Part shown: piece after piece, positions 1-18,185 of the stretch | Numbering within the stretch: the stretch's first letter is position 1 | Layout of the letters: each line of letters begins with the position of its first letter | Assembly (NCBI RefSeq): GCF_014696315.1 | Contig: NZ_JACJPX010000011.1 | Location: 1-64,000 of the forward strand | Direction: 5' to 3' | Source of the DNA: Calothrix membranacea FACHB-236 | Lineage (GTDB): Bacteria; Cyanobacteriota; Cyanobacteriia; Cyanobacteriales; Nostocaceae | Length of the DNA: 64,000 nt | Notes under the pieces: model-generated | Database searches by the model: none | Told to the model about the DNA's origin: nothing | What the model saw: only the letters and a program-made list of their open reading frames with translations | Translations under genes and position numbers: made by a program

Positions 1-129
1 CGAACCCTAGCTAATGCCACTGCCAAACTCAACCTCTGCTTCATCAGGCTAATGATTAAGAGGCTTGCAGACCCTTCCTAAGATGTCAAATGGGTTCTAT
101 AGGATTCATATTTGATTTTTGAAATACTT

Positions 130-216
130 GTAGGGTGTATTGTCGCGTAGCACAACGCACCAAAATGCTATAACCAAAACCAATTTAAGGTGCGTTAGCT
201 TACTGCACAACACACC
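130..216. repeat. Dispersed palindromic repeat pair
   Basis: Two neighbouring hairpin-like blocks can be seen. One is built on GGTGTATTGT and ACAACGCACC, the other on AAGGTGCGTT and ACAACACACCTT. Both are variants of the GGTGCGTT type of intergenic palindrome that is common in filamentous cyanobacteria. I see no convincing gene in the first 410 bases. Confidence 0.5.
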
Positions 217-410
217 TTTATATATTGAATCTTGCTCACTGAATTCCTTTAATTTAAAGTTTGAATTGCTCGTAGGGATTAGCTGGTATATTACAATCGT
301 TGATAATCTGACCCGAAATTAGGATAGATAGTATTTTTGGAAATTTACGAAATTATCTGATGATCAAGATTTTTAATTCAAAATCCCAAATCCCCCATCT
401 AAAATTGATA

Positions 411-788
411 TTAATTCCAACCCAAAATACCTGCTACCTGTTCCGCCAGCCTTAACGGGTCAAACGGTTTGTTAATCACACCTGCGATTCCTAACTGGGC
501 ATATTGTTCATGTTTGGTAGGCTCCACTTTAGCAGTGATCAACATAACTGGAATGCTTTGTGTGACAGGATTATTTTTTAATTCTTGTAACACAGTAAAT
601 CCATCTACATCAGGCATCATCACATCAAGCAAAATAGCATTCAGCTTTTCAGTTTGGGCTTTCAGTAAGCCTTCTCTACCTGATTCAGCTTTTAGTACTG
701 TCCAATCGGCTAAGTTTTCTAGACAGGCTTGAATCACAGTAGACAGTGATTTTTCATCATCAATCAAAAGAATACGTTTTCTAGACAT
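411..788 (-). CDS. Single-domain response regulator (CheY-like)
   Basis: This 125-residue protein is a lone receiver domain. The acidic pair is Asp10-Asp11, the phosphoacceptor is Asp55 in ILLDVMMPD, and the conserved Lys lies in INKPF near residue 107. There is no output domain, so it should act by protein contact or phosphotransfer in the cytoplasm. I chose the ATG at 788 (MSRKRILLIDD) because the longer frame adds nine residues that do not fit the family. It closely resembles the regulator encoded at 1362-1742, which suggests a local duplication. It lies 573 bp downstream of that gene on the same strand and probably has its own promoter. The partner kinase is not in the window. Confidence 0.9.
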   Translation of the reverse strand: MSRKRILLIDDEKSLSTVIQACLENLADWTVLKAESGREGLLKAQTEKLNAILLDVMMPDVDGFTVLQELKNNPVTQSIPVMLITAKVEPTKHEQYAQLGIAGVINKPFDPLRLAEQVAGILGWN

Positions 789-1361
789 ATTACAAACACT
801 AATTTTCAGTATCAAAATACTATAGATACGCGATTACTCAGTTACCCTAGATCTCGTGATCGGGTTATTAATAGTCGTCATCCCAACACAAGATTCGATA
901 TTGAAACGCCAGCGAACTTTCCCATAGGAGACGCTACGCCTAGCTTACTTACCCAATGGGGTAGAAGTTGGTTGCGATTCGCTATAGGTACTGACTCCTC
1001 TGAACAAAGGAAAACTTGAATCGAAAAATAGATTATCTAAGCGCGTATCAGCTGATATTTAACCAGCTGAAGGAAGATAAATAGTCAGCCAAACTATTTC
1101 TTTATCTTCCCATTGTTTACCGTTTCCCAACTAAACATACCATTTAGACTAAAAAATAATTATGAGGAAATTATGAGGTATTTTATCTGGCGAAAAATAA
1201 AAAATAAATGGGATACTCACTTGTAGCTTAGTTCTAATTGATCGCACTAATAGAGAACTGCTATGTGATTTTCGCAACAACTTCCTAAAACCCAAATAGC
1301 TTTTTCCCTGTTCTCTACTCCCCTGTTATTCAAGCATTGGGAGATTTGCTGATTTTAAGCC
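789..1361. other. Intergenic, no gene seen; contains repeat fragment
   Basis: No credible coding frame is visible. A piece of a Nostoc-type dispersed repeat (CATAGGAGACGCTACGCCTA) lies at about 925-944. The rest is AT-rich and should hold the promoter of the response regulator at 411-788. Confidence 0.5.
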
Positions 1362-1742
1362 CTAAAACTTCCATCCTAGAGTATTGGCAACTAGTTCTGA
1401 TAAGCGCAAAGGATCAAACGGTTTAGAAATCACCCCTGCAATTGCCAATTGGGAAAATTCGTTTAAATCTACTGTTTGTACTTTAGCTGTTAATAAAATT
1501 ACTGGAATTGCATTAGTAGTTAAATTGTCTTGCAAGCTGTGAAAAAGTGACATTCCATCAATATCTGGCATCATCACATCTAAGAGAATTGCATCAGGAT
1601 GTTCACTTTTTGCTACAGCTAGCCCTTCAGTACCAGACTGTGCCACCAGAACTTGCCAACGTCCAATATTTTCTAAACAAGCTTTAATCACTGTACATAG
1701 ATTTTTTTCATCATCAATGACCAAAATGCGTTTTTGTGGCAT
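1362..1742 (-). CDS. Single-domain response regulator (CheY-like)
   Basis: This 126-residue receiver domain has Asp10-Asp11, phosphoacceptor Asp55 (AILLDVMMPD), the LLTAK threonine region and the lysine in ISKPF. No DNA-binding or enzymatic output is attached. The gene begins 13 bp after the large hybrid regulator at 1756-3621, so the two are very likely co-transcribed and may be steps in one phosphorelay, since the large protein also carries an HPt domain. It is a near paralogue of the regulator at 411-788. Its cognate kinase cannot be identified here. Confidence 0.9.
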   Translation of the reverse strand: MPQKRILVIDDEKNLCTVIKACLENIGRWQVLVAQSGTEGLAVAKSEHPDAILLDVMMPDIDGMSLFHSLQDNLTTNAIPVILLTAKVQTVDLNEFSQLAIAGVISKPFDPLRLSELVANTLGWKF

Positions 1743-1755
1743 GGCATCACTCAGA

Positions 1756-3621
1756 CTACTGGTAATATTTATGTAATAATTTTTTGCTCAGATGTGTCCG
1801 TTCTAAGCGATTTAGAATCCGAGCAATTAATTCTGGCTCTACAATTGGTTTTCTGATGTAGTCGTCGGCTCCAACTAAATAAACTTGATAGAGTATTTCC
1901 GGTTCAAAATGGGCAGAGAGAAACAAAATTGGTAAGCGATGCCAACAATGATCATTCCTGATTATTTGGCATAATTCTATACCATTAAAATCTGGCATCT
2001 CAATGTCTAAAATTAACAGATCGGGTTTAGTAGATTCTAAGACTTCCCAAAATCTTTGAGACTCTTGTAATGGTGTAACTTGTAATCCCCAAGGTGAAAG
2101 TAAAGTAGTAACCTTCTTGAGTATGAGCGGATCGTCATCTACAACTAAAACTTTTGCATCTGTAGCAGTTTGTTGGTTGAGAGCTATATTAATAGCGGTC
2201 AACACTTCCACAGCAGACATAGTTTTGTTTAAAAAGCTCTGTGCGCCTAAACGAGCAGCTTCTACCCTGTTTTGCAGTTGATTATTAGTAGTCAATACTA
2301 AAACAGGAATCTCTGGATGTGTCTCACTCAATTCTGCTAGAAAAGTTAAACCATTCTCTTCTTTAGCAGGAAATGATAAATCAAGTAATATGACTTCAAT
2401 AGAATTTAAGGCAAGAATGTTTCTCGCCGTTTTGATATCTGCTGCTACCTCTACATGAAAACCCCAGGATATAGCTTCTAATTTAATTCGCTCCGTCAGA
2501 GTCGTATCATCATCAACAATTAGTAGGTTTGCTGATGATGTAATTTGAGTATTGGCAGGGTTAACTGGTGAAGATGGCTGTTGCTGCAATGTTTGTTTGA
2601 GTAATTTCAGTAACTCTACCAACTGCAAAGCTATTCTTTGGTACGGAACAGTATATCTTTCTAGCAGTTGTTCTATGTCACGAGCTATTTTGGAACCTTC
2701 CAGAAAACCGTAACATCCTAAAGAACCAGCTAAACGGTGAGCTTCTGCCTGTGCTTGTTTTAATATCCGCTTATCTGGAGTTACACTTGATAATTGAGCG
2801 ATCGCCTGTTCTAATAACTCAAACTTTTCGCTAAAACTTTTAAGAAACTCTTCCCGCATATTTGCTACTACAGCCATGACTTTGGCTTCGGCTTGTTCTT
2901 TTTCTGACAAATTAGTACTGGGAAGATTTTGCTTTTGCGGCTGATTTTTTGGTTCTTTCAGCCGATAACCTAAACCATATACTGTTTCTATGAAATCTGC
3001 AGTCATTCCTGCGGCTTTGAGCTTCTGGCGCAAACCCTTAATTTGGGTTGTCACAGCTTCTTCCCCAGGAAACTCATCAGCAGACCAAATTCTATCTAGT
3101 AAAACACTTCTACTAAATATCCGGCGCGGATTTTGCAAAAAGAGTTCTAACAAACCATACTCTTTAGGAGTAAGGTGCAGACGCTTGCTTGCATAGGTGA
3201 CTTCTTTGATATTAATATCAAGCTCTAAATTCTCCCAAACTAGCACCTTTGCGAGAATTGTCTTACCTCGCCGCATTAAAGCTCGGATTCTGGCGATTAA
3301 CTCTGATAGCTCAAACGGTTTGTTAATATAGTCATCTGCTCCCGCCTCTAAACCCATGACGCGCATACTGATATCTTCTTTAGCAGTCAGCATTAGAATG
3401 GGTACTTGAGATCCTTCCAAGCGGAGTTGGCGACAAAGACTAATCCCGTCCAATTTCGGTAGCATCACATCCAAAATCAGCAAGTCATAATCAAATGCTT
3501 TAGCCAACTCTAACCCAGTTTCACCATCGTTAGTGCTTTCTATTTGGTAACTCAGAGTTGAAAGCGCTTTGGCTAGGACTAAATTTGTCTGCTTGTCATC
3601 TTCTATTAAAAGAATTTTCAC
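1756..3621 (-). CDS. Hybrid response regulator: REC, OmpR winged helix, HPt, REC, REC
   Basis: This 621-residue cytoplasmic signalling protein joins several modules. REC1 spans about 1-118 (phosphoacceptor Asp51, Lys in NKPF near 101). An OmpR/PhoB winged-helix DNA-binding domain follows at about 125-222. An HPt domain spans about 245-350, with candidate phospho-His295 in AHRLAGSLG. REC2 spans about 364-480 (Asp414) and REC3 about 490-612 (Asp539). Usual OmpR-family regulators are near 230 residues, so the HPt-REC-REC part is an extension. It has no histidine kinase core and must receive phosphate from elsewhere. It heads a probable operon with the receiver gene at 1362-1742. The architecture is read directly from motifs. 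Target genes and stimulus are unknown. Confidence 0.9.
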   Translation of the reverse strand: MKILLIEDDKQTNLVLAKALSTLSYQIESTNDGETGLELAKAFDYDLLILDVMLPKLDGISLCRQLRLEGSQVPILMLTAKEDISMRVMGLEAGADDYINKPFELSELIARIRALMRRGKTILAKVLVWENLELDINIKEVTYASKRLHLTPKEYGLLELFLQNPRRIFSRSVLLDRIWSADEFPGEEAVTTQIKGLRQKLKAAGMTADFIETVYGLGYRLKEPKNQPQKQNLPSTNLSEKEQAEAKVMAVVANMREEFLKSFSEKFELLEQAIAQLSSVTPDKRILKQAQAEAHRLAGSLGCYGFLEGSKIARDIEQLLERYTVPYQRIALQLVELLKLLKQTLQQQPSSPVNPANTQITSSANLLIVDDDTTLTERIKLEAISWGFHVEVAADIKTARNILALNSIEVILLDLSFPAKEENGLTFLAELSETHPEIPVLVLTTNNQLQNRVEAARLGAQSFLNKTMSAVEVLTAINIALNQQTATDAKVLVVDDDPLILKKVTTLLSPWGLQVTPLQESQRFWEVLESTKPDLLILDIEMPDFNGIELCQIIRNDHCWHRLPILFLSAHFEPEILYQVYLVGADDYIRKPIVEPELIARILNRLERTHLSKKLLHKYYQ

Positions 3622-4325
3622 ACAATTTTTTCCCCAACTTTTGCATAACTCAGGTATTCACCTTTGCTTTTAAATTTCTACAGTCCCTACTCGACATTGC
3701 AAAAAAAATCTCTGACGATGGTCTGCTAGGAATATTATTCCCATCGCAACAGTAGATTTTACGATTTTTTATGATTTTTTATCACAAAATTACCCAAAGT
3801 GGGAACAGAATAACTGATTTCTTTTCCAGAATGTAGCGGATGGGAACTGCATTGAAAATAGGGACTAGGGCCTAGAGGCTAAAGGAGAGATTGTCATACC
3901 TAGTACCGCTACGTGGAGGTCAAAGGTCACAAGTCAAAAGTTAAAAGGTTAATTTACCAAGGCTTTTGATTGTTTGAAAGGATAGCTGTATTTACGCTGC
4001 GCTGTACTAGTCCTGTCATTACTTATGTAATTTATAACACAGGCATTTAGCTGCAAGATAGGGAACTTTGAATAATGAAGTTAGGATTTTTAACCTTTAT
4101 TTGTGTAATTTTCCCGTGATTGACTTATGAACAAAGTCCAAAGAGTTAATAACTAATCGCAGATAAAAACACTTATTATCTAACTAAAACAAAACTGGAC
4201 TCCATACCAAAATATACATACCAATAACAAAAACCTCAACTATACTCTAGAAAAGGTAATTTGACTTGCCTTATAGGCAAAATGCTATATGGTGTTGTAA
4301 ATTTCTTGCCGTGGTATTCCGGTAA
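3622..4325. other. Intergenic, no gene seen
   Basis: About 700 AT-rich bases lie between the hybrid regulator and the RRM protein terminator. They should contain the promoter of the regulator operon, which reads to the left. No tRNA, long hairpin or coding frame with family features is apparent. Confidence 0.4.
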
Positions 4326-4378
4326 GTAAAAAATTAAAAATTAAAAATCAAAAAAAATCTGATTTTTAATTTTTAATT
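4326..4378 (-). terminator. Rho-independent-type terminator of RRM gene
   Basis: A perfect 19-bp inverted repeat (4332-4350 against 4360-4378) with a 9-base loop lies just downstream of the RRM gene. On the minus strand it runs into a T-rich stretch. The stem is almost entirely A/T, so termination efficiency is uncertain. Confidence 0.6.
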
Positions 4379-4393
4379 GCTTTTGCATCAAGA

Positions 4394-4894
4394 TTAATTT
4401 GTAGTTTGTGCAGCTAGCATCTGCTTCAGCTTTTCTAATTCAGAAGCCCAACGGGGATCTGGACGAATAGCATCAGAGTCAGATGTTGTAGTTGTTTCGC
4501 GTCCGCTGCTAGCAGCACCACGCCGAGGCTTCTTAGAAGATTTCTCGCGACGGTTGCTTTCTTTATGGGTAACAGGAGCAGGATTACTGCTACCAGCGCT
4601 TTGGGTCGGTTTGGGTGCTTGCTCGTCACCTTCGTCGCCTTTAGTGCGTGGTAATGCCTTCTCTAGCTTGATGGCAGTGTCTTTGAACAATTGACCATTA
4701 TACTTTTCAATAATTTGATCGGCTTGTTCATCATTATTCACTGTGAGAAAGCCGAAGCCACGGCATTTGCCTGTTTTTCGGTCTTTAATTAATTTTGTGG
4801 TGACAGCATCACCTTCGGCAGCAAAAACTGCTTGCAGTTCTTGACGATCTATTTCTTCTTTTGGCAAATTGCCTATATATAGGCGAACAGACAT
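4394..4894 (-). CDS. RRM-type RNA-binding protein
   Basis: This 166-residue protein has one RNA recognition motif at about residues 3-80, with RNP2 (LYIGNL) and RNP1 (KCRGFGFLTV). A hydrophilic, basic, Ser/Thr-rich tail of about 85 residues follows and ends in a short helical segment. Cyanobacterial Rbp proteins of this type bind single-stranded RNA, and several are cold-inducible. The tail here is longer than the short Gly-rich tail of the RbpA class. A GGAGG ribosome-binding site precedes the ATG, and a long AT-rich leader lies upstream, as in cold-regulated rbp genes. The gene is monocistronic. The specific rbp letter cannot be assigned. Confidence 0.9.
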   Translation of the reverse strand: MSVRLYIGNLPKEEIDRQELQAVFAAEGDAVTTKLIKDRKTGKCRGFGFLTVNNDEQADQIIEKYNGQLFKDTAIKLEKALPRTKGDEGDEQAPKPTQSAGSSNPAPVTHKESNRREKSSKKPRRGAASSGRETTTTSDSDAIRPDPRWASELEKLKQMLAAQTTN

Positions 4895-5300
4895 GAACTA
4901 TACCTCCAGAGTTGAATGAACAAGGCAAATGAGAAAACAATCACTTGGCTTTGGCTTTCAAATATATGCTATTTCCCAAGACTGCCATAAACCAATTTTT
5001 TACTCAAAACTGTCAACCTATACAATACAATTTTTCGTCGGGGTCAAGCTTGTTTCATGCCAAATAGCAAACTAAGCTCAATTAAATACCACCTTTAGTT
5101 ATAAGAATTGTAATTTAATAGTTTACTGCCTGCTAAAGTAAACGTTTTCCTATGCCCCTGTTCGCAGAATTAAACACCATTCCTTACATTATCACGGTAT
5201 TTTCTACGTAGCTAGTTCAGCGCATACATTTCTGGCATATTCGTGTAATCGAATCGTAACATAAAATACAATTTTTTCTCAAGAGGAAACATTAGGAAAC
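4895..5300. other. Intergenic leader and promoter region of the RRM gene
   Basis: No coding frame is supported. The AT-rich stretch directly upstream of the RRM gene is long enough for a structured 5' leader, which would fit cold regulation, but I see no defined promoter. Confidence 0.4.
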
Positions 5301-5321
5301 AAAAACCAGCCGGTGGCTGGT
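5301..5321 (-). terminator. Terminator-like hairpin downstream of the M48-like gene
   Basis: A perfect 7-bp stem (ACCAGCC and GGCTGGT) with a 3-base loop is followed on the minus strand by GGTTTTTG. It is GC-rich and well placed to end transcription of the M48-like gene, although it lies about 215 bases beyond its stop codon. Confidence 0.55.
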
Positions 5322-5535
5322 CGGTTTACTGCTGTGTTGGGAGAATCACAAAGATAGATTGGCGCAAGCGTTGGTAATTAATAACTAAGCTAGACTGCCG
5401 AGTTTTATTAATTAGAAATGTTTATGTAAATAAATGTAACACTTGCTAGCAAGAATTGCAAATTTTCGTAATATTTTTTGGGCATGGGGCATTGGTGATG
5501 AGAATTATCTTCCTCTGCTTCCCCGTCTCTAGCTC

Positions 5536-7788
5536 CTAGCCTCTGAGGAAAATAAAAGCGCCCCAAGCTTGGGCCGCAACTGCAATGACTGTAGACCAAA
5601 TGGGATGAGCGCTGTTAACAGTTTGACCATTTTGGGTTTGCATAGTTTGGATATCAATCCAGGGGGTTGCACCGCGCCGGAACCAACCTGTAACTGTAAT
5701 TTGCCTACCAATAAAGTCCTGAGGATTTATGGATTGTCCCAGCCACGGAATGTGGTGCAACTTCACCAACCCAGTGTTGGTTTGCAAAATTAAGTCTTGT
5801 GCTAGGGAATTACTGATTCCCGGACGACCTAAGAGCTTACCAGCAAGGCAGACATTAATGCTATCGATAGGGATAGCTGAGGGGTTGGCTAAAAGGCTGG
5901 GTAGGCGATCGTCAGTTTGTAAAGCATGAGGTTGGATATCAGGAAAGAAAGAATTCATGCGGATAACCATACCGATGCTAAAGCCAATCAGCAAGCAACC
6001 TGCGACAAAAGACCAATCTTCATATATCCATGTGAGGTTTAAAATTTTGAGTCCATAGGCTATCTGCCAAACTAGCCAGATTAGGCCTGCAAATAAAAAA
6101 CCTAAGGGAATGCCCAACCAAGGAGCGATTTGTAAAAAGAAAGGGTGCTTTTTCGGTCTTAAGGATTGCTCGTTGATGAGATGTAGTTCTGGTTCTAAAT
6201 GCCAGTGACGAGCGATTTTGCTAAGGCGTTGAATGCGATCGCCAATTAAGGGATGACTATTATTAATAGTGAACCAACGGCGATGGGGATTGAAATTATC
6301 CCACATCAATAATGATGTAAAGGGAACCTGACCAGCTAGACTACCCAAGGAAATACTTTGTTGATGGCTCACAGGTGCTAGCAGATTCAAACTTTCTAAT
6401 TGCCAACTAGTTTGTTCTTGTTTGGCAATATCACCAGCTACACCAATAGTAATTTTGAGTAAGGCGCGGGTTAAAGCATTGGGATTCCCTGTAATTTCTG
6501 AGGCGGCGCGATCGCTATAATAAAGCCGCAACTTCGACAACCACAAAGCTATCCCAGTTAGTAAACACCAAATTCCATAGGTAAAACTAGCTAAAACTCT
6601 GGCTGGCCAACGCCCAAATTCCGATGAGATACTATTACCCCACTCGGATATGCTCTGATATATCCTGTGAACAATGATTGTCAGCAGCAATACCAAAGAC
6701 ATGACGATAAAATCTTTGTGAATGATATGCCCTAACTGCGTGGCGTAGATAACAGCAATTTCATCATCAGCCAGTTGATCTAATAATCCTTGACTGATCA
6801 CTATCCGGGTATTGCGTGCTAAATTACCATAGGTCAGGGCAATAGGGGCAGCCATTGGCAAAATCCGCAGTTTGGGAAAGGGCCAGCCTCTCTGTTGACA
6901 AGAACGTTGTAATACCCTAATTGCTTCGCGGCTGCGATTATTTAACTGCTCTTTGGGCAACTCCCGCTGTCCATAAAAATTTGTGAGTAACCGATCTAAT
7001 AACCAAGGTGATAAAGCTAGCGCTATGACTAATACCGCGATTACAACCACAGATGGATCGCGATATAAAAAGGGTAACGGCTCTAAGTAAGGTAATTTAA
7101 CTAAAATCTGATTTATTAAAACCATTACCAGCTTGAGCATTTCCCGCATTACCCAAAATAGAGCGAAAAATGTGCCAGTAGCTAGCAATTTTAAAGGTAT
7201 TAAATTTAGCTTATGTAGGGGTTGCCAAACTTTCGCTCGGCCTGCGTGTCGCCAATAAATGTTGAATAATTTAGGTTGTGAGCGATGGAGAGAACCAATA
7301 TAACCATTGGCTCCCATCATTGTGTCTACAGTAGTATTTTTAATACTACTGGCTGGTAAAGTTGATGTAGTGCCCGTATTGTTAGTGGCTTTTGCCACTG
7401 AATTGTTGGTCTGTTGTGGTGATGCAGTATTTACAGGCACTGCATCTGGTTTAGGAGAATTGTCAAAAGCAACAAATCCATTTGCAGAATTTTTTGATGA
7501 GGTATTTTTACGTTTTTGGTGCTTTTTTAAATGTTCAAGAGCGCGTTGTGCCCACTCTTGAACCTGCGGATTTGGACTCACAATCAGATTGTTACACACA
7601 GCGATCGCTTTGGGGACTTGGCCACTGCGCGCATAAGCCATAACCAAGCCCACCTGCGCCTGTAAGCCAGTTTTGTCATCTTTCTGGCTATTGGCAACAG
7701 GTTCCAGGTGAGCGATCGCTGTGGGATAATTTCCCTGTTTTAGAGCAACTAAACCAGCCTCCAAAGACGATTCGGCATGTGAAGGCAT
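5536..7788 (-). CDS. Membrane M48-like protein with TPR N-terminus and degenerate zinc site
   Basis: This is a 750-residue membrane protein. Residues 1-95 look like TPR helices, 100-165 are a low-complexity linker, and several hydrophobic segments follow (about 200-228, 246-265, 360-380, 400-420 and 555-605). The middle resembles M48 (HtpX/Ste24) peptidases, with DDEIAVIYATQLGHIIHKD aligned to the zinc site. The HExxH motif reads T350-Q351-L-G-H354, and the EYxAD ligand region reads LYYSDRAAS, so two zinc ligands and the catalytic Glu are missing. A C-terminal stretch (about 640-735) looks like an OB-type fold. It lies 94 bp downstream of prfC on the same strand. A structural or chaperone-like role is inferred, and proteolysis seems unlikely. 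Confidence 0.8.
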   Translation of the reverse strand: MPSHAESSLEAGLVALKQGNYPTAIAHLEPVANSQKDDKTGLQAQVGLVMAYARSGQVPKAIAVCNNLIVSPNPQVQEWAQRALEHLKKHQKRKNTSSKNSANGFVAFDNSPKPDAVPVNTASPQQTNNSVAKATNNTGTTSTLPASSIKNTTVDTMMGANGYIGSLHRSQPKLFNIYWRHAGRAKVWQPLHKLNLIPLKLLATGTFFALFWVMREMLKLVMVLINQILVKLPYLEPLPFLYRDPSVVVIAVLVIALALSPWLLDRLLTNFYGQRELPKEQLNNRSREAIRVLQRSCQQRGWPFPKLRILPMAAPIALTYGNLARNTRIVISQGLLDQLADDEIAVIYATQLGHIIHKDFIVMSLVLLLTIIVHRIYQSISEWGNSISSEFGRWPARVLASFTYGIWCLLTGIALWLSKLRLYYSDRAASEITGNPNALTRALLKITIGVAGDIAKQEQTSWQLESLNLLAPVSHQQSISLGSLAGQVPFTSLLMWDNFNPHRRWFTINNSHPLIGDRIQRLSKIARHWHLEPELHLINEQSLRPKKHPFFLQIAPWLGIPLGFLFAGLIWLVWQIAYGLKILNLTWIYEDWSFVAGCLLIGFSIGMVIRMNSFFPDIQPHALQTDDRLPSLLANPSAIPIDSINVCLAGKLLGRPGISNSLAQDLILQTNTGLVKLHHIPWLGQSINPQDFIGRQITVTGWFRRGATPWIDIQTMQTQNGQTVNSAHPIWSTVIAVAAQAWGAFIFLRG

Positions 7789-7882
7789 AGAATTTTTGGC
7801 ACTCCCATCTGTTCTAACTGATCCACGTTTATGCTCAAGGGCATAATGTTTAGATTCCCCAGCTAATACCTTGCGTCCGGAA

Positions 7883-9511
7883 TTATCCCTCCACTGATTG
7901 CTGAGTAGAATACACCGGGGCGATCGCGCTTAATTTTAACTTGGGATGATCTCCCTGTAATTGTTGGCAATTCCATTCATTACGGAAAAGCAATACTGGT
8001 CGTCCCATGTTGTCTTTGACTGTGGTGGTGTTAAATATTCGTCCCACCTCATTCAATGCTTCCCAACCGCCTTCAACCCAACGGGCAACGCTATAGGGTA
8101 GCAAGTCTAATATGGTTTCTACACCATACTCATTTTGTAAGCGAAACTGCACTACCTCGAACTGTAACTGACCCACCGCCGCTAAAATTGGATCGCGTTT
8201 GGCTTCGTCAATGGAGTACATAATTTGCACTGCACCTTCTTCCCGTAATTCCGAAATGCCTTTTTGAAATTGCTTAAACTTGGAAGGGTTGGGGTTCCTT
8301 AAAGTTGCAAACAATTCCGGTGAAAAATAAGGAATTCCTTCATATTCGAGCTTTTGTCCAGTGTAAATAGTGTCGCCGATCGCAAAAACACCAGGATTAT
8401 TCAAACCGATGACATCACCAGGATAAGCGACATCAATTGATTCTCGCTCTTGGGCGAAAAGTTTTTGTGGGCGAGACAGACGGACGATTTTGCCTGTGCG
8501 GGCGTGAGTCACCGTCATATCTTTTTCAAACTTACCCGTGCAGACGCGGATAAATGCCACGCGATCGCGGTGCTTCGGGTCCATGTTAGCCTGGAGTTTG
8601 AAGACAAAGCCAGAAAACTCTGGATAAGTAGGCGGAACTTCACCAACGCTACTATTATGAATTCCTGGTTTTAAGGCATAACCCAAGAAGTGCTTCAAGA
8701 ATAGCTCCACCCCAAAGTTGGTCATGGCACTACCGAAAAATACTGGTGTCATTTTTCCTTGATGCACTAAATCTAAATCTAGTTCCGGCCCGACTCCTTC
8801 TAAGAGTTCTAAATCGTTTTTCAGTTGGTAGTAGAGATCCTGCTCTAGGAGTTCCTCAATTTTGGCATCGCCCAAATCAACTATTGTGTCTTTCGCTTCT
8901 CTGCTACCGTGGGCGCTACGTTCAAATAAATGAATTTGTTGGTTTTGGCGATCAAATACACCTTTAAAGCGATCGCCCATGCCAATCGGCCAGTTGACTG
9001 CATAGGTTTGCAATCCCAATTCTTGCTCGATTTCGTCCAATAATTCCAGGGGTTCGCGTCCGGGACGGTCGAGTTTATTCACAAAGGTAAAGATGGGGAT
9101 ACCGCGCAACTTACAAACTTCAAATAATTTGCGCGTTTGGGGTTCCAAGCCTTTGGCAGCATCAATCAGCATCACTGCATTATCGGCAGCAGCCAGAGTA
9201 CGATACGTATCTTCACTGAAATCTTGGTGTCCAGGGGTATCTAATAAGTTGATATAACAGCCACGATATTCAAACTGCAATACTGTAGATGTGATAGAAA
9301 TACCCCGTTGCTGTTCCATCGCCATCCAGTCTGAGGTGGCTTTACGTTGCGCTCTGCGGGCTTTGACTGCGCCAGCTTCGTGAATTGCACCTCCGTATAA
9401 CAAGAGTTTTTCGGTCAGGGTGGTTTTACCTGCGTCGGGGTGTGAAATAATCGCAAAGTTGCGGCGAAGTTCAACAGCCTGATGCAGATCTGAGTTGAGT
9501 TCAGTGGACAT
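7883..9511 (-). CDS. prfC: Peptide chain release factor 3
   Basis: This 542-residue translational GTPase removes RF1 or RF2 from the ribosome after peptide release. The P-loop is [14 protein letters not shown] (about residues 23-36). Switch II is [11 protein letters not shown] and the guanine-specificity motif is NKLD. Length and the full set of domains (G, II, III) match bacterial RF3, and this is distinct from EF-G. The gene precedes the M48-like gene with a 94-bp gap, so read-through is possible. It shares a functional theme with prmC elsewhere in the window, which methylates RF1 and RF2. Identity is secure from family-specific motifs. Confidence 0.95.
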
Positions 9512-9799
9512 AAGTGTAATTGTTTGCTCTTTAGTTAACTTAACTTAATTTTTTTTCAAGATTGGTGAGTCTTTTCATCTTAGAACAACGATGCACGCGA
9601 TCGGGTCGTCAGATGGCGAACTACCTGCGTCGGGTACAAGGAATCGGGAAGTAAAAGCAATAGAGGTAAAAGTTGTTTTGGCCTATATCAAACACAAATC
9701 CTCAATAAAATCACCCGTCATGAACTAAGTAAGTCGATGGAAATAAACCAAACTATGTTACGAAACGTAAATAGCCTTGAAACCTTTACCAATGACCAA
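9512..9799. other. Promoter region of prfC
   Basis: No gene is seen. The stretch directly upstream of prfC is AT-rich (TTAACTTAACTTAATTTTTT) and contains one HIP1-like site near 9598. Confidence 0.4.
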
Positions 9800-9945
9800 T
9801 GACATAGACGCTTTAGCGGCTTCCCGCAGGGTAGGACAAAGCGCAAAGTCGAGCCAGTCGTGTGGGCGGGTCTCCCGACTTGAACGAACTGGCGTTGAGC
9901 GGAGGTTTCCTCCGTACACCAAAGGGGTTGCCGCAGGCATCAGAA
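9800..9945. repeat. Cluster of short dispersed palindromic repeats
   Basis: GC-rich blocks stand out from their AT-rich surroundings: GCTTTAGCGGCTTCCCGCAG, GGGCGGGTCTCCCGACTTG, a perfect CGGAGG-TTT-CCTCCG hairpin at 9900-9914 and GGTTGCCGCAGGCATCAGAA. Such modules recur between genes in Nostoc-type genomes. An open frame across this block on the minus strand seems accidental. Confidence 0.6.
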
Positions 9946-10455
9946 CTTTGTAAGAATGACAGCCTTGGCCAGTTATCTTTAATTGCACCGCCCTACTTAT
10001 GTATCTAGGGAAGGATGCAATTTTTTTGTTATTTATGTTTTTGGATTTGTACCGAATGTTGCTGAATTCAAAGGGTAAAAGCGTCAATTTGTACACAACT
10101 AATTAATAAAAATTCTTATTCTCTCAACCCCAGTCGGTAAATGGTATTCACAAAAAATGCCAAAGAATCTATTAATTTCTACTTTAATGTATGGCTTTGT
10201 GGAAGAATAGATTGCAGTACTACTTTAAGTAAACTTGAGATTATTCCCCTCATAGGTAAAGGGTATCTACTAAACTGGAGCTAATTATAGATTTGGGCAA
10301 TAGCACTGTTATTTAGCAACCCAGATTAACCATACCGTTAGGCGTTCAGTTGCAGAGGTTGTTTTGCGCCAATTATGGTACTTGGTAATTCCGCAGCAGT
10401 CATTAGGTAGTTGATAATATTTATAGTTGAGAAACAGCAGTTTCTGCACTACTCA
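9946..10455. other. Intergenic, no gene seen
   Basis: AT-rich sequence without a supported gene lies between the repeat cluster and the small reading frame in front of hemB. No tRNA or strong hairpin is visible. Confidence 0.4.
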
Positions 10456-10680
10456 TTACCAAATTTCTGCAATTAATTTAGGGGGATTTTTTATCAGTTT
10501 TTTTTGCAGTGCGTCGAAGTGATGTCTATCACGCTGTACAATACGAAATTGCCCCACAGCTTCATCAACAGTAGGGCAAAGGACAGTTAAGCACTGCTGG
10601 TAGTCTGTCCTAACTGAGTAAGGTTTTTCCTTGCTTTTGTGACGCTTTCTATTGTGTCCATTTGCGTTGTAATTCTTCAT
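10456..10680 (-). CDS. Possible small basic protein divergent from hemB
   Basis: This 74-residue frame begins with a strongly basic N-terminus rich in Lys, Arg and His. Its second half has a more ordinary composition. No family is recognised and no ribosome-binding site precedes the ATG. Its start lies only 8 bases from the hemB start on the other strand, leaving no room for two separate promoters. It may therefore be a chance frame lying over the hemB promoter. Confidence 0.3.
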   Translation of the reverse strand: MKNYNANGHNRKRHKSKEKPYSVRTDYQQCLTVLCPTVDEAVGQFRIVQRDRHHFDALQKKLIKNPPKLIAEIW

Positions 10681-10688
10681 AAAACTTT

Positions 10689-11669
10689 ATGTTTCCAACT
10701 CACCGCCCCCGCCGTCTGCGTACACATCCCCAACTGCGCCGGATGGTACGAGAAACTGTTTTATCAACAAGTGATTTGATTTACCCACTTTTTGCGGTAC
10801 CAGGTGAGGGAATTGCTAACGAAGTCAAATCCATGCCTGGAGTTTACCAGCTGTCGGTAGACAAAATTGTTGAAGAGGCAAAGGAAGTTTATGACTTAGG
10901 AATTCCCGCCATCATTCTATTTGGTATTCCCGCCGATAAAGATGTAGATGCTACTGGCGCTTGGCATGATTGCGGTATTGTGCAAAAAGCAGCTACTGCG
11001 GTGAAGGAAGCGGTACCAGACTTAATTGTGGTGGCTGATACTTGTCTATGTGAATATACAAGTCATGGTCATTGCGGTTACTTACAAGTGGGTGATTTAA
11101 CGGGAAGAGTTTTAAATGACCCAACTTTAGAATTACTGAAAAAAACAGCAGTATCCCAAGCCAAAGCTGGTGCTGATATCATTGCTCCTTCAGGGATGAT
11201 GGATGGCTTTGTGCAAGCAATTCGTGCGGGTTTAGATGAAGCGGGATTTCAGGATACACCGATTTTGTCTTATGCGGCTAAGTATGCTTCGGCTTATTAC
11301 GGCCCATTCCGGGATGCAGCGGATTCTACACCGCAATTTGGGGATAGAAGAACTTACCAAATGGACCCTGGTAACTCCCGCGAAGCGATTAAAGAAATTG
11401 AACTCGATATCGCGGAAGGCGCTGATATGCTCATGGTGAAGCCAGCCTTAGCATACATGGATATTATTTGGCGCGTTAAGGAAGCTAGCAACCTTCCTGT
11501 TGCTGCTTATAATGTTTCCGGTGAGTATTCGATGGTGAAAGCTGCTGCTCTCAATGGTTGGATTGATGAACAACGCGTAGTGATGGAAACTTTAACTGGC
11601 TTTAAACGTGCTGGTGCTGATTTAATTTTGACTTACCATGCTAAAGATGCGGCGCGCTGGTTAAAGTAA
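10689..11669 (+). CDS. hemB: Porphobilinogen synthase (delta-aminolevulinate dehydratase)
   Basis: This 326-residue enzyme condenses two 5-aminolevulinate molecules into porphobilinogen, an early common step to chlorophyll, haem, phycobilins and cobalamin. The metal-binding cysteine region reads [17 protein letters not shown]. The catalytic lysines are in [17 protein letters not shown] and [10 protein letters not shown]. The start ([11 protein letters not shown]) is typical for cyanobacterial HemB, and length matches the family. The gene is monocistronic here. Its promoter must overlap the small divergent frame upstream. An inverted repeat at 11707-11767 follows the stop codon. Confidence 0.96.
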
Positions 11670-11706
11670 TCTGCACAATTAATGTAAAAACTCATCATTT
11701 ATCCAA

Positions 11707-11767
11707 AATCTCACGCACAGGTACAAAGGCGCAAACTGCAAGTGTCTTGGTGTCTGAGCGTGAGATT
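11707..11767. repeat. Inverted repeat downstream of hemB
   Basis: AATCTCACGC (11707-11716) is exactly inverted as GCGTGAGATT (11758-11767), with about 41 bases between. It could be a hemB terminator without a T-tract or the ends of a small non-coding element. It lies just before the broken glycosyltransferase. Confidence 0.5.
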
Positions 11768-11787
11768 ATTATTTCGATAGCAGGGAC

Positions 11788-11799
11788 GCAAAGCTTTGC
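11788..11799. repeat. Perfect palindrome GCAAAGCTTTGC at gene breakpoint
   Basis: A 12-bp perfect palindrome lies in GGGACGCAAAGCTTTGCC, a sequence that recurs as part of dispersed repeats in Nostoc-type genomes. Recognisable glycosyltransferase sequence begins only a few codons downstream, so this marks the likely breakpoint. Confidence 0.5.
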
Positions 11800-12219
11800 C
11801 TTCCTACCTCATGTATTGGTGTCAAACGTGCGCTGCATAATGCGATCGCAGGCTTTGATGAAAAGCTGATGGTATTAGAAGATATTGACTACTGTTGGAG
11901 AATTCAACAAACAGGAGCCAAACTAGTTTATGTTCCAGAAGCGCTAGTTCACTTCCGCTATCGCGACACGATCGCAGGTTTATACAATCGCTGGTGGACT
12001 CTGTCTGTACATGATATTTTGTTACATAAAAAACACAGAAGAATGGGTATGCCTCAATTGATTAAATGGCAGCCAATTCTCAAAGAGTTTGTATTGTTAC
12101 CGTTAAAATTTCTAGTTAAAGTCCGTAATAAAGAAACTCTAGGAAAGTGGTTAATCGATTTTGCTCGGTTAACTGGGCAGTTGCGAGGATGTATTAAATA
12201 CAAATATCTGCCAATGTAA
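11800..12219 (+). pseudogene. Family 2 glycosyltransferase, 5' truncated remnant
   Basis: The translated frame carries the C-terminal half of a GT2-type glycosyltransferase: RALHNAIAGFDEKL, then LEDIDYCWRIQQTGAKLVYV with the conserved ED and CWR elements, and a basic C-terminal helix region. The GT-A nucleotide-binding half with the DxD motif is missing. An in-frame stop at 11761-11763 and a palindromic repeat precede the homology, so no full gene can be restored. The first ATG (11869) starts inside the conserved region, giving 116 residues, too short for activity. I read it as a deletion remnant. Confidence 0.75.
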
Positions 12220-12530
12220 ACCTTGTCAAACTTGGCTTTTGACTGTTGACAGTCAACACTCATAGATTTTTAAGATGAGAGCTAATAAAGAAATTGATTT
12301 ACTGAGAAAGTACTTATTTATAGATGGTTTTTATACGCGATAATACGGATATTTAAAATTTATATCAAAGATTTCTTACGGGATATTACAGAAATAAAGG
12401 GTTGCGGCGTTTGCCAGAGGGGTAGGCGATCGCTTATAAAGTATATAGTTAATAAAATGCTAACAATTGATATTTTATGTCAATTGATTTAATAAACAAA
12501 ATGTAAATTATTCAATAGGAGCATGGGATT
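12220..12530. other. Intergenic region upstream of the HTH gene
   Basis: No gene is seen. A small perfect palindrome (GTTGAC-A-GTCAAC, 12245-12257) follows the glycosyltransferase remnant and a HIP1 site lies near 12428. An AGGAG ribosome-binding site lies just before the HTH gene. Confidence 0.4.
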
Positions 12531-12821
12531 ATGGATATGCAAGTCCTGAGAGAACGTGCTGGGCTTAGCCGTGCAGAGGTTGCCTTCAGGCTTGCAATCA
12601 GTGAAACCAGTGTTCGCAACTGGGAAGCTGGGCGTACTGAACCCACAATGACACCAAAGAAATATTTAGATGCTTTGCGTTTGTTTAAATGCACACCTGA
12701 AGAATTGGCAGCAGCTAGCGAAAAGTCAATAAACCAGAGGCATAAACGCAAACCAGGAAGACCAAAACGCTTTCCAGACCCAGTGGTAGCTCAAGTCACT
12801 GATTCGCTTGCCAGTTTGTAG
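12531..12821 (+). CDS. Small XRE-type helix-turn-helix protein
   Basis: This 96-residue protein has an N-terminal XRE-type helix-turn-helix at about residues 5-60 (RERAGLSRAEVAFRLAISE, then SVRNWEAGRTEP). A basic tail (KRKPGRPKRFPDP) resembles an AT-hook. An AGGAG site 9 bases upstream supports the ATG at 12531. It probably binds DNA as a small transcriptional regulator. No toxin partner or linked target is visible, because the flanking genes are a glycosyltransferase remnant and pdhB. Target genes are unknown. Confidence 0.85.
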   Translation: MDMQVLRERAGLSRAEVAFRLAISETSVRNWEAGRTEPTMTPKKYLDALRLFKCTPEELAAASEKSINQRHKRKPGRPKRFPDPVVAQVTDSLASL

Positions 12822-13095
12822 TAGTTAGGGGCTGGGGACTGGGGGATAAGGGAGATGAGGGTACAAAGAGACCAGCACAATAATTCTTAACTCAGCACTC
12901 AGACCTCAGAACTCAGCACTCGGCACTTTCAAGCCAGAATGGACAGGGGAGATATAATACCTGTGCAATTTCTGATGCCCCATACCCAATGCCCTATGCC
13001 TTATGCCAAAATTTCCAAGTAGTGCGATCGCTCACGGTATTTGCCACGGTGGCGCGATAAGATTCTAAAACAATAATTGTGAATACAAGGTTTAA

Positions 13096-14079
13096 ATGGC
13101 AGAAACTCTTTTCTTCAACGCCCTCCGTGAAGCCATTGACGAAGAAATGGCGCGTGATTCTAATGTATTTGTTCTTGGGGAAGATGTCGGACACTATGGC
13201 GGTTCCTACAAAGTTACCAAAGACCTTTACAAAAAGTATGGTGAACTAAGAGTTCTTGACACCCCCATCGCCGAAAATAGCTTTACTGGCTTGGCCGTGG
13301 GAGCTGCGATGACTGGCTTAAGACCCATCATCGAAGGCATGAATATGGGTTTTTTGCTGCTTGCCTTTAACCAAATCTCTAATAACGCTGGGATGTTGCG
13401 TTATACTTCCGGCGGTAATTTTAAAATTCCAATGGTAATTCGTGGCCCTGGTGGTGTGGGTAGACAGCTAGGTGCAGAACATTCGCAACGCTTAGAAACT
13501 TACTTCCAAGCTGTTCCTGGGCTAAAAATTGTTGCTTGCTCTACACCTTACAACGCTAAAGGACTTCTGAAATCAGCAATTCGCGATGATAACCCAGTAC
13601 TGTTCTTTGAACATGTTCTGCTTTACAACTTAAAAGAAGACCTGCCAACAGAAGAATATTTACTTCCTTTAGATAAAGCTGAAGTTGTGCGTCGTGGTAA
13701 AGATGTCACAATTCTTACTTATTCACGGATGCGCCATCATGTATTACAAGCCGTGAAAACTTTAGAAAAAAAAGGTTACGACCCAGAAGTCATTGATTTA
13801 ATATCACTGAAACCATTAGATTTTGATACCATTGGCGCATCTATCCGCAAAACCCATCGCGTAATTGTAGTAGAAGAAGCGATGCGGACAGCAGGTATTG
13901 GTGCAGAAGTCATCGCTTCCATTAATGACCGCTTGTTTGATGAATTGGATGCGCCTGTACTACGCCTTTCATCCCAAGATATTCCCACACCTTACAACGG
14001 TAATCTAGAGCGCCTAACAATTGTTCAACCAGAACAAATCGTAGAAGCCGTAGAAAAAATGGTGGCTATGCGAGTGTAA
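13096..14079 (+). CDS. pdhB: Pyruvate dehydrogenase E1 component, beta subunit
   Basis: This 327-residue protein pairs with E1 alpha in the pyruvate dehydrogenase complex to make acetyl-CoA from pyruvate. Family signatures are present: [17 protein letters not shown] near the N-terminus, [18 protein letters not shown] and [12 protein letters not shown], as well as the C-terminal transketolase domain. AAGG lies 5 bases before the ATG. The alpha subunit gene is not adjacent, as is usual in cyanobacteria. The 270 bases upstream are low-information sequence with a HIP1 site near 13024. Confidence 0.95.
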
Positions 14080-14279
14080 GGCTAGGGGACTGGGGACAAG
14101 GGGACAAGGGGAAATGGGAAAAAACAGCAATTACCAATTACCCCTTACCCATTACCAATGCCCTATTCCCAATGCCCTATTCCCCGTATCAGTAACAATT
14201 CTTACTAATAACCAATAACTCATAACGATTAAAAAGAGCGCTATTATAGCCTTTGTCAGTTGCGAGTGATGGTTATGAT

Positions 14280-15707
14280 ATGCAGAGACAGCGATCGCTA
14301 TTAGCTTTAATTGTGGTGTTGATTATCGCCGCTTTTGCGGTGATTTTCACAATCCCTATTCCTTTGGGACTCGATTTACGGGGAGGTTCACAGCTAACAA
14401 TTCAGGTGAAAACAACACCAGAAATTAAACAAATCACCGAACGTGAATTGGTAGCTGTGCAAAAAGTTGTTGAAGGACGGATTAACGGTCTTGGCGTTTC
14501 GGAGCCAGTAATTCAAATAGTACCTAACACAGACAAAATTCTTGTACAGCTACCTGGTGTCAACGATCCAGCGCAAGCAGAACGTGTGTTAGGCGGTACT
14601 GCACAATTAGAATTCCGCTCACAAAAAGCAGGTACAGAGACTCAATTGTTTGCTTTTCAAGCATCCAGAGCCGAACTAAAAGCCAAGCAAGCAGAGTTAA
14701 TTAAGTCTAAGGATGCTGCGGGAATTGCGAAAAATCAAGAAGAGTTGCAGAAAAATAACGAAGCGATCGCAGAATTGTTTGAAAGCACAAACCCGCCACT
14801 GACAGGTCAATTCCTTAAAGATGCCTATGGCGAACCTACTCAAGGTGGTAATAATTGGAATGTTGCCATTCGCTTCGATCAAAAGGGTGGTGAACTGTTT
14901 GCAGATCTCACCAAACAGCTTGCTGGTACTGGACGCAGCATAGGTGTTTTTGTAGACAATGAACTGATCAGCGCTCCTAATGTACCTCCAGAATTTGCTG
15001 CTACAGGTATTACTGGCGGTTCTGCCGTGATTACCGGTCGGTTTACTCCCCAAGCAGCTAATGATTTAGGTGTGCAGCTACGCGGTGGTGCATTACCAGT
15101 ACCCGTAGAAATTGCCGAAATCCGCACAGTTGGGGCAACTTTGGGTAAAGACAGTATTCAAAGCAGTATCTATGCTGGGCTTGGTGGTCTAATTTTAGTA
15201 TTAATCTTTATGGTGGTCTATTATCGACTACCAGGCTTAATTGCTGATATAGCGCTGATTATCTACGCTTTACTAACTTGGGCTAGCTTTGCTTTATTAG
15301 GTGTGACGCTCACCCTACCAGGAATTGCTGGGTTTATCCTCAGTATTGGTATGGCAGTAGATGCAAATGTACTAATTTTTGAACGGACAAGAGAGGAATT
15401 GCGAGCAGGTAAAAGCCTTTATCGTTCCGTAGAATCTGGCTTTTACCGCGCCTTTTCCAGTATTCTAGACGGCAACGTCACCACAGTAATTGCCTGTGCT
15501 GCACTATTCTGGCTAGGATCTGGTTTGGTCAAAGGTTTTGCCCTAACCTTGGCTCTAGGGGTAGCTATGAGTATGTTTAGTGCCCTTACCTGTAGCCGTA
15601 CCTTTATGTTTTTAGCTATTTCCATTTCTTCTCTACGGAAACCAGAACTTTTCTGTCCGAACCTGCCAACATCAAATAAGGCAAATAAGGCAGAGGTGGC
15701 ACAATGA
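14280..15707 (+). CDS. secD: Protein translocase subunit SecD
   Basis: SecD works with SecF to drive protein export through SecYEG using the proton-motive force. In cyanobacteria this serves the plasma and thylakoid membranes. Visible elements are an N-terminal membrane segment ([17 protein letters not shown]), the family motif [16 protein letters not shown], a large periplasmic domain with an Ala/Lys-rich insert, and five C-terminal helices with [18 protein letters not shown]. The ATG at 14280 (MQRQRS) is preferred over an upstream TTG at 14253. The last four bases overlap the secF start (ATGA), showing translational coupling. Confidence 0.95.
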
Positions 15708-16705
15708 AAATAAGTATTAACAAATCGCGATCGCTTTGGTGGGCTATTTCTGCCGCAATCATTTTAGCTGGTATCGCCTCTATGGTGATTTCTTGGCAAA
15801 ATCCCAACATCAAAGCACCCTTACGTCCCAGTTTGGATTTTATTGGTGGTACAAGATTACAGCTAGAACGAGACTGTACCCAACCTGGTAACTGCGACAA
15901 ACCAATTGATATCAATGTTGTCCGAGAAGTAGCTAGAACCCAGGGTTTAGGCGATAGCAGCATCCAAATTGTCGCTGATAAAGACACAAAAGCAGAAAAT
16001 GGCATATTAATTCGCACAAAAACCTTAGATCGCGAACAACGTACTCAATTGCAAACTGCTTTAAGCGAAAAAATTGGTACTTTCGACGAGCAAAAAAACC
16101 AGATTGATACAGTTGGGCCGACATTGGGACGAGAGCTATTTACCTCTGGTATGATTGCCCTGATTGTGTCATTTGTGGGTATCACTATTTACTTAGCTTT
16201 TCGCTTCCAATTAGACTATGCTGTATTTGCCATTGTGGCTCTATTTCATGATGTTTTAATTACAGCAGGGATTTTCTCGATTTTGGGTTTAGTCCTCGGT
16301 ACAGAAGTAGACAGCCTCTTCATCGTAGCCCTACTGACTATTACTGGGTTTTCGGTCAACGATACCGTGGTAATTTACGATCGCATTCGAGAAACCTTGA
16401 AAATCAATCCCAACCGTCCGATAGCTGAGATTGTGGATGATGCGGTGAACCAAACCTTAGGAAGATCCATCAACACCACCTTAACGACTATGTTGCCTTT
16501 ATTTGCTATCTTGTTTTTTGGTGGAGAGACACTGAAAAACTTTGCTTTAGCTCTACTAATCGGCTTCATGGCGGGGGCTTATTCCAGTATTTTTATAGCT
16601 AGTACTTTGCTAACTCTATGGAGAGAACGTACTGGTACTGGTCAATCTGGTGCGGTAGTAGGTGCTGAGTCTATTGATACTTCTGTCAGTTCCCAAGATA
16701 CTTGA
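15704..16705 (+). CDS. secF: Protein translocase subunit SecF
   Basis: This 333-residue partner of SecD has an N-terminal membrane helix and the motif [13 protein letters not shown] periplasmic domain is followed by five transmembrane helices, with [16 protein letters not shown] in the conserved fourth segment. It overlaps the secD stop by four bases, so the two are made together from one mRNA. Length and topology fit the family. The Cys pair in [11 protein letters not shown] lies in the periplasmic part and could form a disulfide, but this is inference. Confidence 0.95.
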
Positions 16706-16874
16706 ATTTGCCTCTATTTGCTCGTTGGGTGAATCTCGAATTGCTAATACCAAATTGCCACAGATTGGATGATTCTAAATTGGTTTAATATCGCAAATAT
16801 TAGTTTCACCAATCAAAAATCTCAAATCCACAATTCTAAATTGATATCACCCATATCTTGCCGTTTTACGTTCT

Positions 16875-17309
16875 ATGGATCAATCGCAACAACCATCGCT
16901 TAATGGCGATCATATTCATAACTCTGACCCAGCTTTTGCTCAACAAGTGCAAAGGTTACATCAACTGACAGTCTACGGTCGATGGTTGTTTGTCGCCTGC
17001 TTGTGGTTTACCATTGCGCCTATTTGTTTGTGGAACTTACAAGCAGAAATTGCTCTATGGAAACAATACTTTACCTGGGTGGCAGTGCGATACGGACTTG
17101 TATACCATCCACTGTCTACCCTAGGTTTAGCATTTTGTATTGGGATGACAACTTCTGTCTTAATTTGGCAAAGTCGCAATATCTTGATTGGGCTACCAGA
17201 ACAGGAAAAGCAACGTTTAGAAAAGCAAGTTTTTCGCATCCGTCAGCAAGGCCCAACTCATCCTCTATGGAAATGGGTTTGTCAGCCTATGCAAAAAATG
17301 AAAGATTAA
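16875..17309 (+). CDS. Conserved small membrane protein of unknown function
   Basis: This 144-residue protein has two predicted membrane helices (about residues 36-56 and 80-100) and a soluble, basic C-terminal segment (RLEKQVFRIRQQGP). A short polar N-terminus contains no export signal. I recognise no named domain, but it looks like a cyanobacterial conserved hypothetical. It follows secDF by 169 bp on the same strand and may have its own promoter. Assignment to protein export would be guilt by association only. Overlapping frames lack such coherent hydrophobic segments. Confidence 0.75.
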   Translation: MDQSQQPSLNGDHIHNSDPAFAQQVQRLHQLTVYGRWLFVACLWFTIAPICLWNLQAEIALWKQYFTWVAVRYGLVYHPLSTLGLAFCIGMTTSVLIWQSRNILIGLPEQEKQRLEKQVFRIRQQGPTHPLWKWVCQPMQKMKD

Positions 17310-17717
17310 AAATACCTAAGCAACTTGATTTATCATCAAGTAAAAAATTAGAATACATTTCTCAGTCAACAAATTTAATAGTTCCTTAAATTACCACATA
17401 AGTTCACTATTATCTGCTAAATAAAAGCTGTAAGACATCACACCTGCACTTATAAGTAAATATCTTAATCAAGATTGAACCAAAAATTGCGTAATTTTTG
17501 GCAAGATGCTATGAATACCTTATCCTGTCGTTATTTGAAATTGCTAGATTAAAATAAACAAGCCATTATTGCCTTGTTGATTTGAGATTGTACGGATAAG
17601 AAAGATTGGTGCGATCGCTCGAGGTAATTACCCTTAAAATTAGCGCTGCATCTGTGGCAAAATCTGTAAAAATTGAGATAACCGGTAGTCAAAATACTGC
17701 TAAATCGGGTGTTGTAC
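17310..17717. other. Intergenic, no gene seen
   Basis: About 400 AT-rich bases with a HIP1 site near 17612 (GTGCGATCGCTCGAGG). It should hold the promoter of the GNAT gene. No hairpin strong enough to call is visible. Confidence 0.4.
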
Positions 17718-18185
17718 ATGAACTATCCTCAAATTCAATTTAGCGATCGCAAGTCTGAAATTGATCTAGAACAACTGCAACAGCTGTTTAATATCTGCGC
17801 CTTTTGGGCCAGAGAACGTAGTATTGAAGATTTGAGTATAGCGATTAGTAACAGTGAACCAGTAATTTCTGTATGTGATGGAAACCGACTCGTTGGTTTT
17901 GCTCGCGCCACTTCCGATGGTATTTATCGCGCCACAATTTGGGATGTTGTCATTCATCCAGACTATCGTGGTACAGGATTAGGCAGCAAATTAGTAGAAA
18001 CAGTCTTAAGTCATCCTCACATGAGGGTTGAGCGTGTTTATCTTATGACTACTCACCAGCAAGGTTTCTACGAAAAGATTGGTTTTCAGCGCAATACAAC
18101 TACCACTATGGTGTTATATAACCAAGCTAACCTTGAGCCTCTACCGACTGAGGAAATTCAGCTTCAGGAATTACGAGGGGGATAG
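17718..18185 (+). CDS. GNAT family N-acetyltransferase
   Basis: This GNAT-fold enzyme of about 155 residues is expected to transfer an acetyl group from acetyl-CoA to an amine or protein. The acetyl-CoA loop is HPDYRGTGLGSKLVE, preceded by the beta strand IWDVVIHP, and the C-terminal FYEKIGFQR is typical. The ATG at 17718 (MNYPQIQ) is chosen over a GTG at 17709. It is clearly related to the GNAT at 23050-23577, sharing GFARATSD and TIWDVV. Its 3' end overlaps the histidine kinase gene on the other strand by 59 bases. The substrate is unknown. Confidence 0.9.
   Translation: MNYPQIQFSDRKSEIDLEQLQQLFNICAFWARERSIEDLSIAISNSEPVISVCDGNRLVGFARATSDGIYRATIWDVVIHPDYRGTGLGSKLVETVLSHPHMRVERVYLMTTHQQGFYEKIGFQRNTTTTMVLYNQANLEPLPTEEIQLQELRGG

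Follow-up and report, generated by a model that had tools for sequence, protein, structure and literature searches.

A cyanobacterial M48-family membrane protein without its zinc site, conserved beside rbpG

The protein studied here, encoded on the minus strand of a window of 64,000 nucleotides (the whole stretch of DNA analysed) from Calothrix membranacea FACHB-236, is in our judgment probably an old, selectively maintained pseudopeptidase of the M48 family, and most likely a non-catalytic membrane scaffold facing the cytosol. This reading is drawn from sequence comparisons: loss of the zinc ligands throughout a large clade, purifying selection on that clade, and retention of the elements that surround the former active site. 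A conserved rbpG neighbour, which is new relative to the original prediction for this DNA, adds a possible setting. The features discussed are collected in Table 1.

Table 1. Features of the pseudopeptidase gene and its surroundings (window coordinates).
Feature	Coordinates	Strand	Basis or remark
M48-family pseudopeptidase gene	5536..7788	-	750 aa, ATG start; orthologues known
N-terminal TPR-like helices, residues 1-95	7504..7788	-	Pfam TPR_16 below cut-off, model, Foldseek
TM1, ~residues 206-225	7114..7173	-	hydropathy
TM2, ~residues 246-264	6997..7053	-	hydropathy
M48 domain, residues 287-525	6214..6930	-	Pfam PF01435
Degenerate HExxH: T350 Q351 L352 G353 H354	6727..6741	-	alignment of clade members
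TM3, ~residues 355-380	6649..6726	-	hydropathy
TM4, ~residues 398-416	6541..6597	-	hydropathy
Degenerate third-ligand motif, L422 to D426	6511..6525	-	clade vs active-sister alignment
Retained HPx4R active-site-plug motif, HPLIGDR, H512-R518	6235..6255	-	clade alignment
TM5, ~residues 552-580	6049..6135	-	hydropathy
TM6, ~residues 593-611	5956..6012	-	hydropathy
OB-like C-terminal domain, residues ~640-725 (GWFRRGATPWIDI)	5614..5871	-	model, VIA-align, Foldseek
TM7, ~residues 730-748	5545..5601	-	hydropathy
Terminator-like hairpin between pseudopeptidase gene and rbpG	5304..5322	-	promoter/terminator scan
rbpG-type class II RRM protein, C-terminal PDPRWA motif, downstream neighbour	4394..4894	-	conserved adjacency
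prfC (peptide chain release factor 3), upstream neighbour	7883..9511	-	placement less conserved outside window's family

An M48 membrane protein and its missing zinc ligands

With a score of 62.5 bits (cut-off 20.3, E 6.1e-17) the 750-aa frame matches the Pfam Peptidase_M48 model, and PF01435 is matched by 39 of the 40 members of alignment A2 (E up to 0.01). Eight HtpX models also have matches to the frame, all far below their cut-offs (best NF002669, E 6.6e-23), and the status of an HtpX equivalog in NCBIfam is not reached (best 81.3 bits against 341). The genome of Calothrix membranacea FACHB-236 contains 13 M48 matches including this frame; eight of the 12 others were examined, and all eight have the HExxH and E..(A)D motifs intact. 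Hydropathy gives about seven membrane segments. Frame, Pfam match and hydropathy together bear out the intact, 750-residue, M48-like membrane protein that had been proposed.

The flanking parts of the protein were examined by profile and fold searches. At the N-terminus TPR_16 matches under the Pfam cut-off (E 9e-4, 20.1 bits against 32.7), residues 1-90 are modelled as helical with a pLDDT of 60-86, and most Foldseek rows for the full-length model, all of them weak (best E 0.059), show TPR proteins such as BamD, LapB and Fis1. This full-length model, made from 40 Nostocales-type sequences, has a mean pLDDT of 50.5, too poor to show the geometry of the M48 core or zinc site. The C-terminal domain, modelled separately (mean pLDDT 64), has six predicted strands, and the VIA-align rows shown for it are largely OB folds (Rim1, PriB, SSB, Asp/AsnRS), the best at Z 6.2 over 74 residues and 2.7 A and none at Z 8, a level that may reflect a common arrangement alone. 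Foldseek reached a best E of 0.014 with this domain, and at E up to 1 the domain of the window protein has no match in Pfam or, by profile search, in the PDB. The domain is common to the pseudopeptidase clade and its active sister group, with GWxRRG and Asp712 conserved. The predicted TPR N-terminus has partial support, its profile match lying under the cut-off, and the predicted OB-like C-terminus weaker support, from the model and the fold searches.

With the segments counted from a cytosolic N-terminus, that count and the charge of three of the four large loops would place the TPR part, the groove of the former protease and the OB-like domain all on the cytosolic side. The loops of the TPR and M48 parts are positive (basic to acidic residues 21:10, 12:8 and 15:10), and the loop of the C-terminal domain is neutral (7 basic, 7 acidic), so that the side given to this domain rests on segment counting.

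The description of the active site on which the original prediction was founded is exact: TQLGH stands in place of HExxH at residues 350-354, and LYYSDRAAS, beginning at residue 422, in place of the third-ligand region. TQLGH is also found in the closest named relatives, L039 from Nostoc linckia FACHB-104 (96% identical) and L040 from Nostoc carneum (94%). For the clade as a whole we aligned the 91 orthologous frames L009-L099 with 54 from deeper relatives, which gives 145 members, 141 of them distinct and not independent of one another, since many are close relatives. The first zinc-ligand His is present in none of the 91 frames and in none of the 145 members, and the same holds for the third-ligand Glu (0/145), replaced by Leu in the window protein. 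The second His (H354) is kept in 93 of 145 and the general-base Glu of HExxH (E351) in 34, leaving one of the three zinc ligands in 93 members and none in 52. In a validation set of 20 further loci, hand-picked from profile-search matches and previously unused, both the first His and the third-ligand Glu are gone in 20/20, with E351 present in 18. HExxH in most orthologues, an outcome that would argue against a conserved pseudoenzyme, was accordingly not found among these 145 and 20 sequences. Position 350 carries 13 residue types and the exact TQLGH, whose conservation it had been proposed to check, occurs in 60/145; the members examined thus have in common the lack of a zinc site and not the string itself. 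For six far members on long branches (L150, L154, L172 and L174-L176) the motif columns are less sure; the ligands are found in none of them.

Other parts of the site have been kept. Asp426 is present in all 145 clade members, and the HPx4R plug, a motif reported to be conserved throughout the M48 Pfam family (PMC7950410), retains H512 in 141, P513 in 132 and R518 in 145, with all three in 130. Because Asp426, HPx4R and the fold signatures remain, a non-catalytic groove is likely retained.

Selection, origin and relatives

Compared with eight relatives the window protein gives dN/dS values of 0.09-0.17 (for instance 0.019/0.193 and 0.167/1.143), and seven other usable pairs give about 0.12-0.30, a weaker constraint than near the window protein. 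The M48 pseudopeptidase clade is under purifying selection. We rejected, with next to no probability left to it, the explanation that TQLGH results from a sequencing error or a decaying pseudogene, because orthologues share the loss and dN/dS is low: frames are open and the same loss recurs in many genomes, whereas nothing speaks for error or decay of the window gene and the one sign of it is a TAG codon that stands in frame within the part of the far relative G185 that was matched. The loss of two ligands in all members examined, the frames that have stayed open and the purifying selection agree with the proposal of a maintained pseudopeptidase over one in decay. By its sequence the protein qualifies as a pseudopeptidase, the catalytic residues being lost throughout orthologues that are under purifying selection.

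A tree of 101 sequences was calculated by a quick search with both motif stretches removed; it is rooted at its midpoint and has long branches, several of which meet. One branch (SH-aLRT 100) separates 74 thinned inactive sequences from 27 others, these being 23 active sequences and the inactive pairs L169/L170 and L171/L177. In these pairs, L169 and L170 (genomes G332 and G177) and L171 and L177 (G193 and G282), YAQALGR and YAYQLGR replace YAHELGH. The two pairs look like separate zinc-site losses and, because they sit within the active sister group, the site was apparently lost more than once. The wider M48 family is active, and it is on this that an ancestral activity rests, the root of the tree being a midpoint with no outgroup.

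In the genome of the window the active sister group is represented by L005 (668 aa, HELGH, TREYFAD), the closest same-genome relative of the pseudopeptidase, with 35% identity over residues 250-736. The group shares with the pseudopeptidase clade the membrane segments, the M48 domain and the OB-like C-terminus, but differs in having HExxH in 23/23 sequences (the set was chosen so) and the third-ligand Glu at position 422 in 23/23. Genomes were counted with score cuts of ~511 bits for the pseudopeptidase clade and ~650 bits for the active sister, set by eye, with divergent members below the cuts uncounted. Among the matches listed, the clade is clear in at least 93 of the 194 genomes of the class and the active sister in at least 60: both occur in 27, the pseudopeptidase alone in 66, the active sister alone in 33 and neither in 68, which corresponds to independent occurrence (p 0.64).

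With regard to known systems, HtpX has the M48 domain in common with the pseudopeptidase (its solved fragment 3cqb is matched by the clade profile at E 4.1e-7), but the pseudopeptidase has additional TPR and OB-like parts and lacks the zinc site. The E. coli protein BepA likewise combines M48 with TPR and has the HPx4R plug, yet is periplasmic and active, with zinc bound by H136, H140, E201 and H246 (PMC7950410). The corresponding residues of the pseudopeptidase, assigned by motif and not by structure, are T350, H354, L422 and H512, so that by this assignment the pseudopeptidase lacks an equivalent for two of the four residues with which BepA binds zinc. Bacterial pseudo-orthocaspases are also inactive protease homologues, tied by their authors to photosynthesis (PMC6426788), but have an unrelated cysteine-protease fold, and inactive metallopeptidase homologues likewise have a metallopeptidase fold incapable of catalysis (PMC11266112). 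A word search of the main text of the latter review found no M48, HtpX or Ste24, and a literature search that had most subscription journals outside its reach found no description of the M48 pseudopeptidase clade among the matches listed.

The rbpG neighbourhood

The downstream neighbour encodes an RNA-binding protein of class II, as defined in PMC9333190 and PMC11500504, and RbpG has been implicated in photosynthetic mRNA handling (PMC11500504). All 121 RRM frames in the loci fetched carry P(D/N)PRW. Adjacency was counted over 57 loci outside the window's family, from which seven with short downstream sequence and no rbpG were set aside; at 33 of the 50 eligible loci, and in 15 of 20 families, rbpG lies downstream in the same orientation, no more than 2.5 kb away. 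Adding four left-out, non-adjacent loci (L172, L174, L175 and L176, from families f23 and f24) changes these figures to 33/54 loci and 15/22 families; L118, where rbpG lies ~4.6 kb upstream, was counted as non-adjacent. For comparison, prfC is near the pseudopeptidase gene at 9 of 36 loci outside the window's family, and 12 other window genes are near it at 0/57, the farther of these having had little chance to appear because the flanks span ~5-6 kb. The adjacency that a partnership with RbpG would lead one to expect is therefore conserved. In Anabaena PCC 7120, where all4377 is rbpG (PMC11500504) and all4379 is release factor 3, the gene order implies that all4378 should be the orthologue of the pseudopeptidase gene; the papers matched by a literature search on these genes do not mention all4378.

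Between the pseudopeptidase gene and rbpG lies a gap (4895-5535) of ~640 bp, and many distant lineages have a gap of much the same size. It has no long open frame, and Rfam gave nothing at gathering scores on window positions 1-20000, the gap included. The gap may serve rbpG as a long leader or as a promoter region, and in the published rbpG complementation the promoter was the 512 bp upstream of the gene (PMC11500504). The promoter and terminator scan of the region gave site counts equal to those of shuffles. In view of the gap and the terminator-like stem, co-transcription with rbpG is not indicated. Elsewhere in the window, positions 1756-3621 encode a response regulator of 621 aa that unites three receiver matches, a Trans_reg_C domain and an Hpt domain in one chain.

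At the level of whole genomes the picture is different. The class II Rbp motif PDPRWA..L..L is found in 186 of 386 genomes. Nearly all genomes of the window's class have it, once each, with G294 the only one lacking it among the class genomes listed, and outside the class it is present in G050 only; a further scan found none in G391 and two in G407. The motif could serve as a marker of the class. Co-occurrence of RbpG and pseudopeptidase across genomes was not found, the motif being near-universal in the class and the pseudopeptidase clade clear in about half of it (the lower bound given above), so that RbpG must work without the pseudopeptidase in many species. A Glu after PDPRWAxxL in the Rbp tail, scored in 65 genomes among the matches listed, is present in 17/19 with adjacent genes, 0/11 with non-adjacent genes and 3/35 without the pseudopeptidase gene. 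Left out of this comparison were the window's family, f25, the unclear G116, G203, G229 and G336, the f23 pair G085 and G241 (non-adjacent, not Glu) and G011, which runs contrary to the correlation in having a Glu tail though rbpG is not adjacent downstream. Followed on the tree, the association comes down to three independent pairs and is not significant (p 0.25). In an Anabaena rbpG knockout, photosynthetic mRNA levels fell and the mRNAs stayed at the thylakoid (PMC11500504); since their location was unchanged, a simple tether model is weakened.

Possible functions

For the preferred reading, that of a membrane scaffold, we envisage that the groove and the TPR part would bind a polypeptide, that the OB-like domain possibly binds RNA or another partner, and that the bound polypeptide would be held at the membrane uncut, the pseudopeptidase acting as a scaffold or holdase. 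Because the position beside rbpG is conserved, the most likely setting is one in which photosynthetic mRNA and nascent membrane proteins are handled in connection with RbpG, a hypothesis put forward tentatively. More speculative, and in itself unlikely, is that the pseudopeptidase acts at the membrane as receptor of the conserved C-terminal tail of RbpG (PDPRWA...), the groove docking the mRNA carrier and the OB-like domain touching RNA.

The main rival, to which we give a minor but appreciable probability, is that the protein, in line with the membrane chaperone also offered originally, takes care of unfolded membrane proteins in general, as a chaperone or holdase with no connection to RbpG, and that the adjacency is an inherited accident of gene order. 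The retained groove elements and TPR part would suit it, as would the 17 of 50 eligible loci, and four more, without rbpG within 2.5 kb downstream, and the probably separate transcription of the two genes in the window; conservation of the adjacency in 15/20 families, set against 0/57 loci for the 12 other window genes, argues against this rival. That the protein regulates an active HtpX-like M48 protease, or pairs with one as a dominant-negative partner, a role offered originally as regulation of a true HtpX, we regard as improbable. Pseudoenzymes that regulate active cousins are generally described (PMC11266112), and the closest same-genome relative, L005, is such an active M48 protein; the independent occurrence of clade and active sister (27/194 genomes with both, p 0.64, among the matches listed) leaves the proposal unsupported for this sister and is why its regulation is not favoured, although other M48 proteases of the same genome could be the targets. 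Least probable among the functional alternatives is that the protein is still an enzyme that uses another metal or residue set and has lost the classical motif alone. H354, H512 and D426 are kept in 93, 141 and 145 of the 145 members, and E351 in the numbers given above (34/145 and 18/20), but the former ligand positions vary, with 13 residue types at position 350 and none of the three ligands in 52/145, which makes an unusual metalloenzyme very unlikely.

RNA-binding proteins are implicated in the way photosynthetic mRNAs and ribosomes reach the thylakoid of cyanobacteria, and the available parts of PMC11500504 and PMC10601611 name no membrane partner for the RNA-binding proteins linked to photosynthesis. 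A conserved, membrane-anchored and probably non-catalytic protein beside rbpG is a concrete candidate for such a partner. If the receptor reading were true, docking would take place at the very membrane on which photosystem proteins are synthesised, and lineages without the pseudopeptidase gene would use another anchor. For the family, the clade means that an M48 branch joins the metallopeptidase folds that are kept without catalysis, and the annotation "M48 metallopeptidase" is likely wrong as to the activity of its members.
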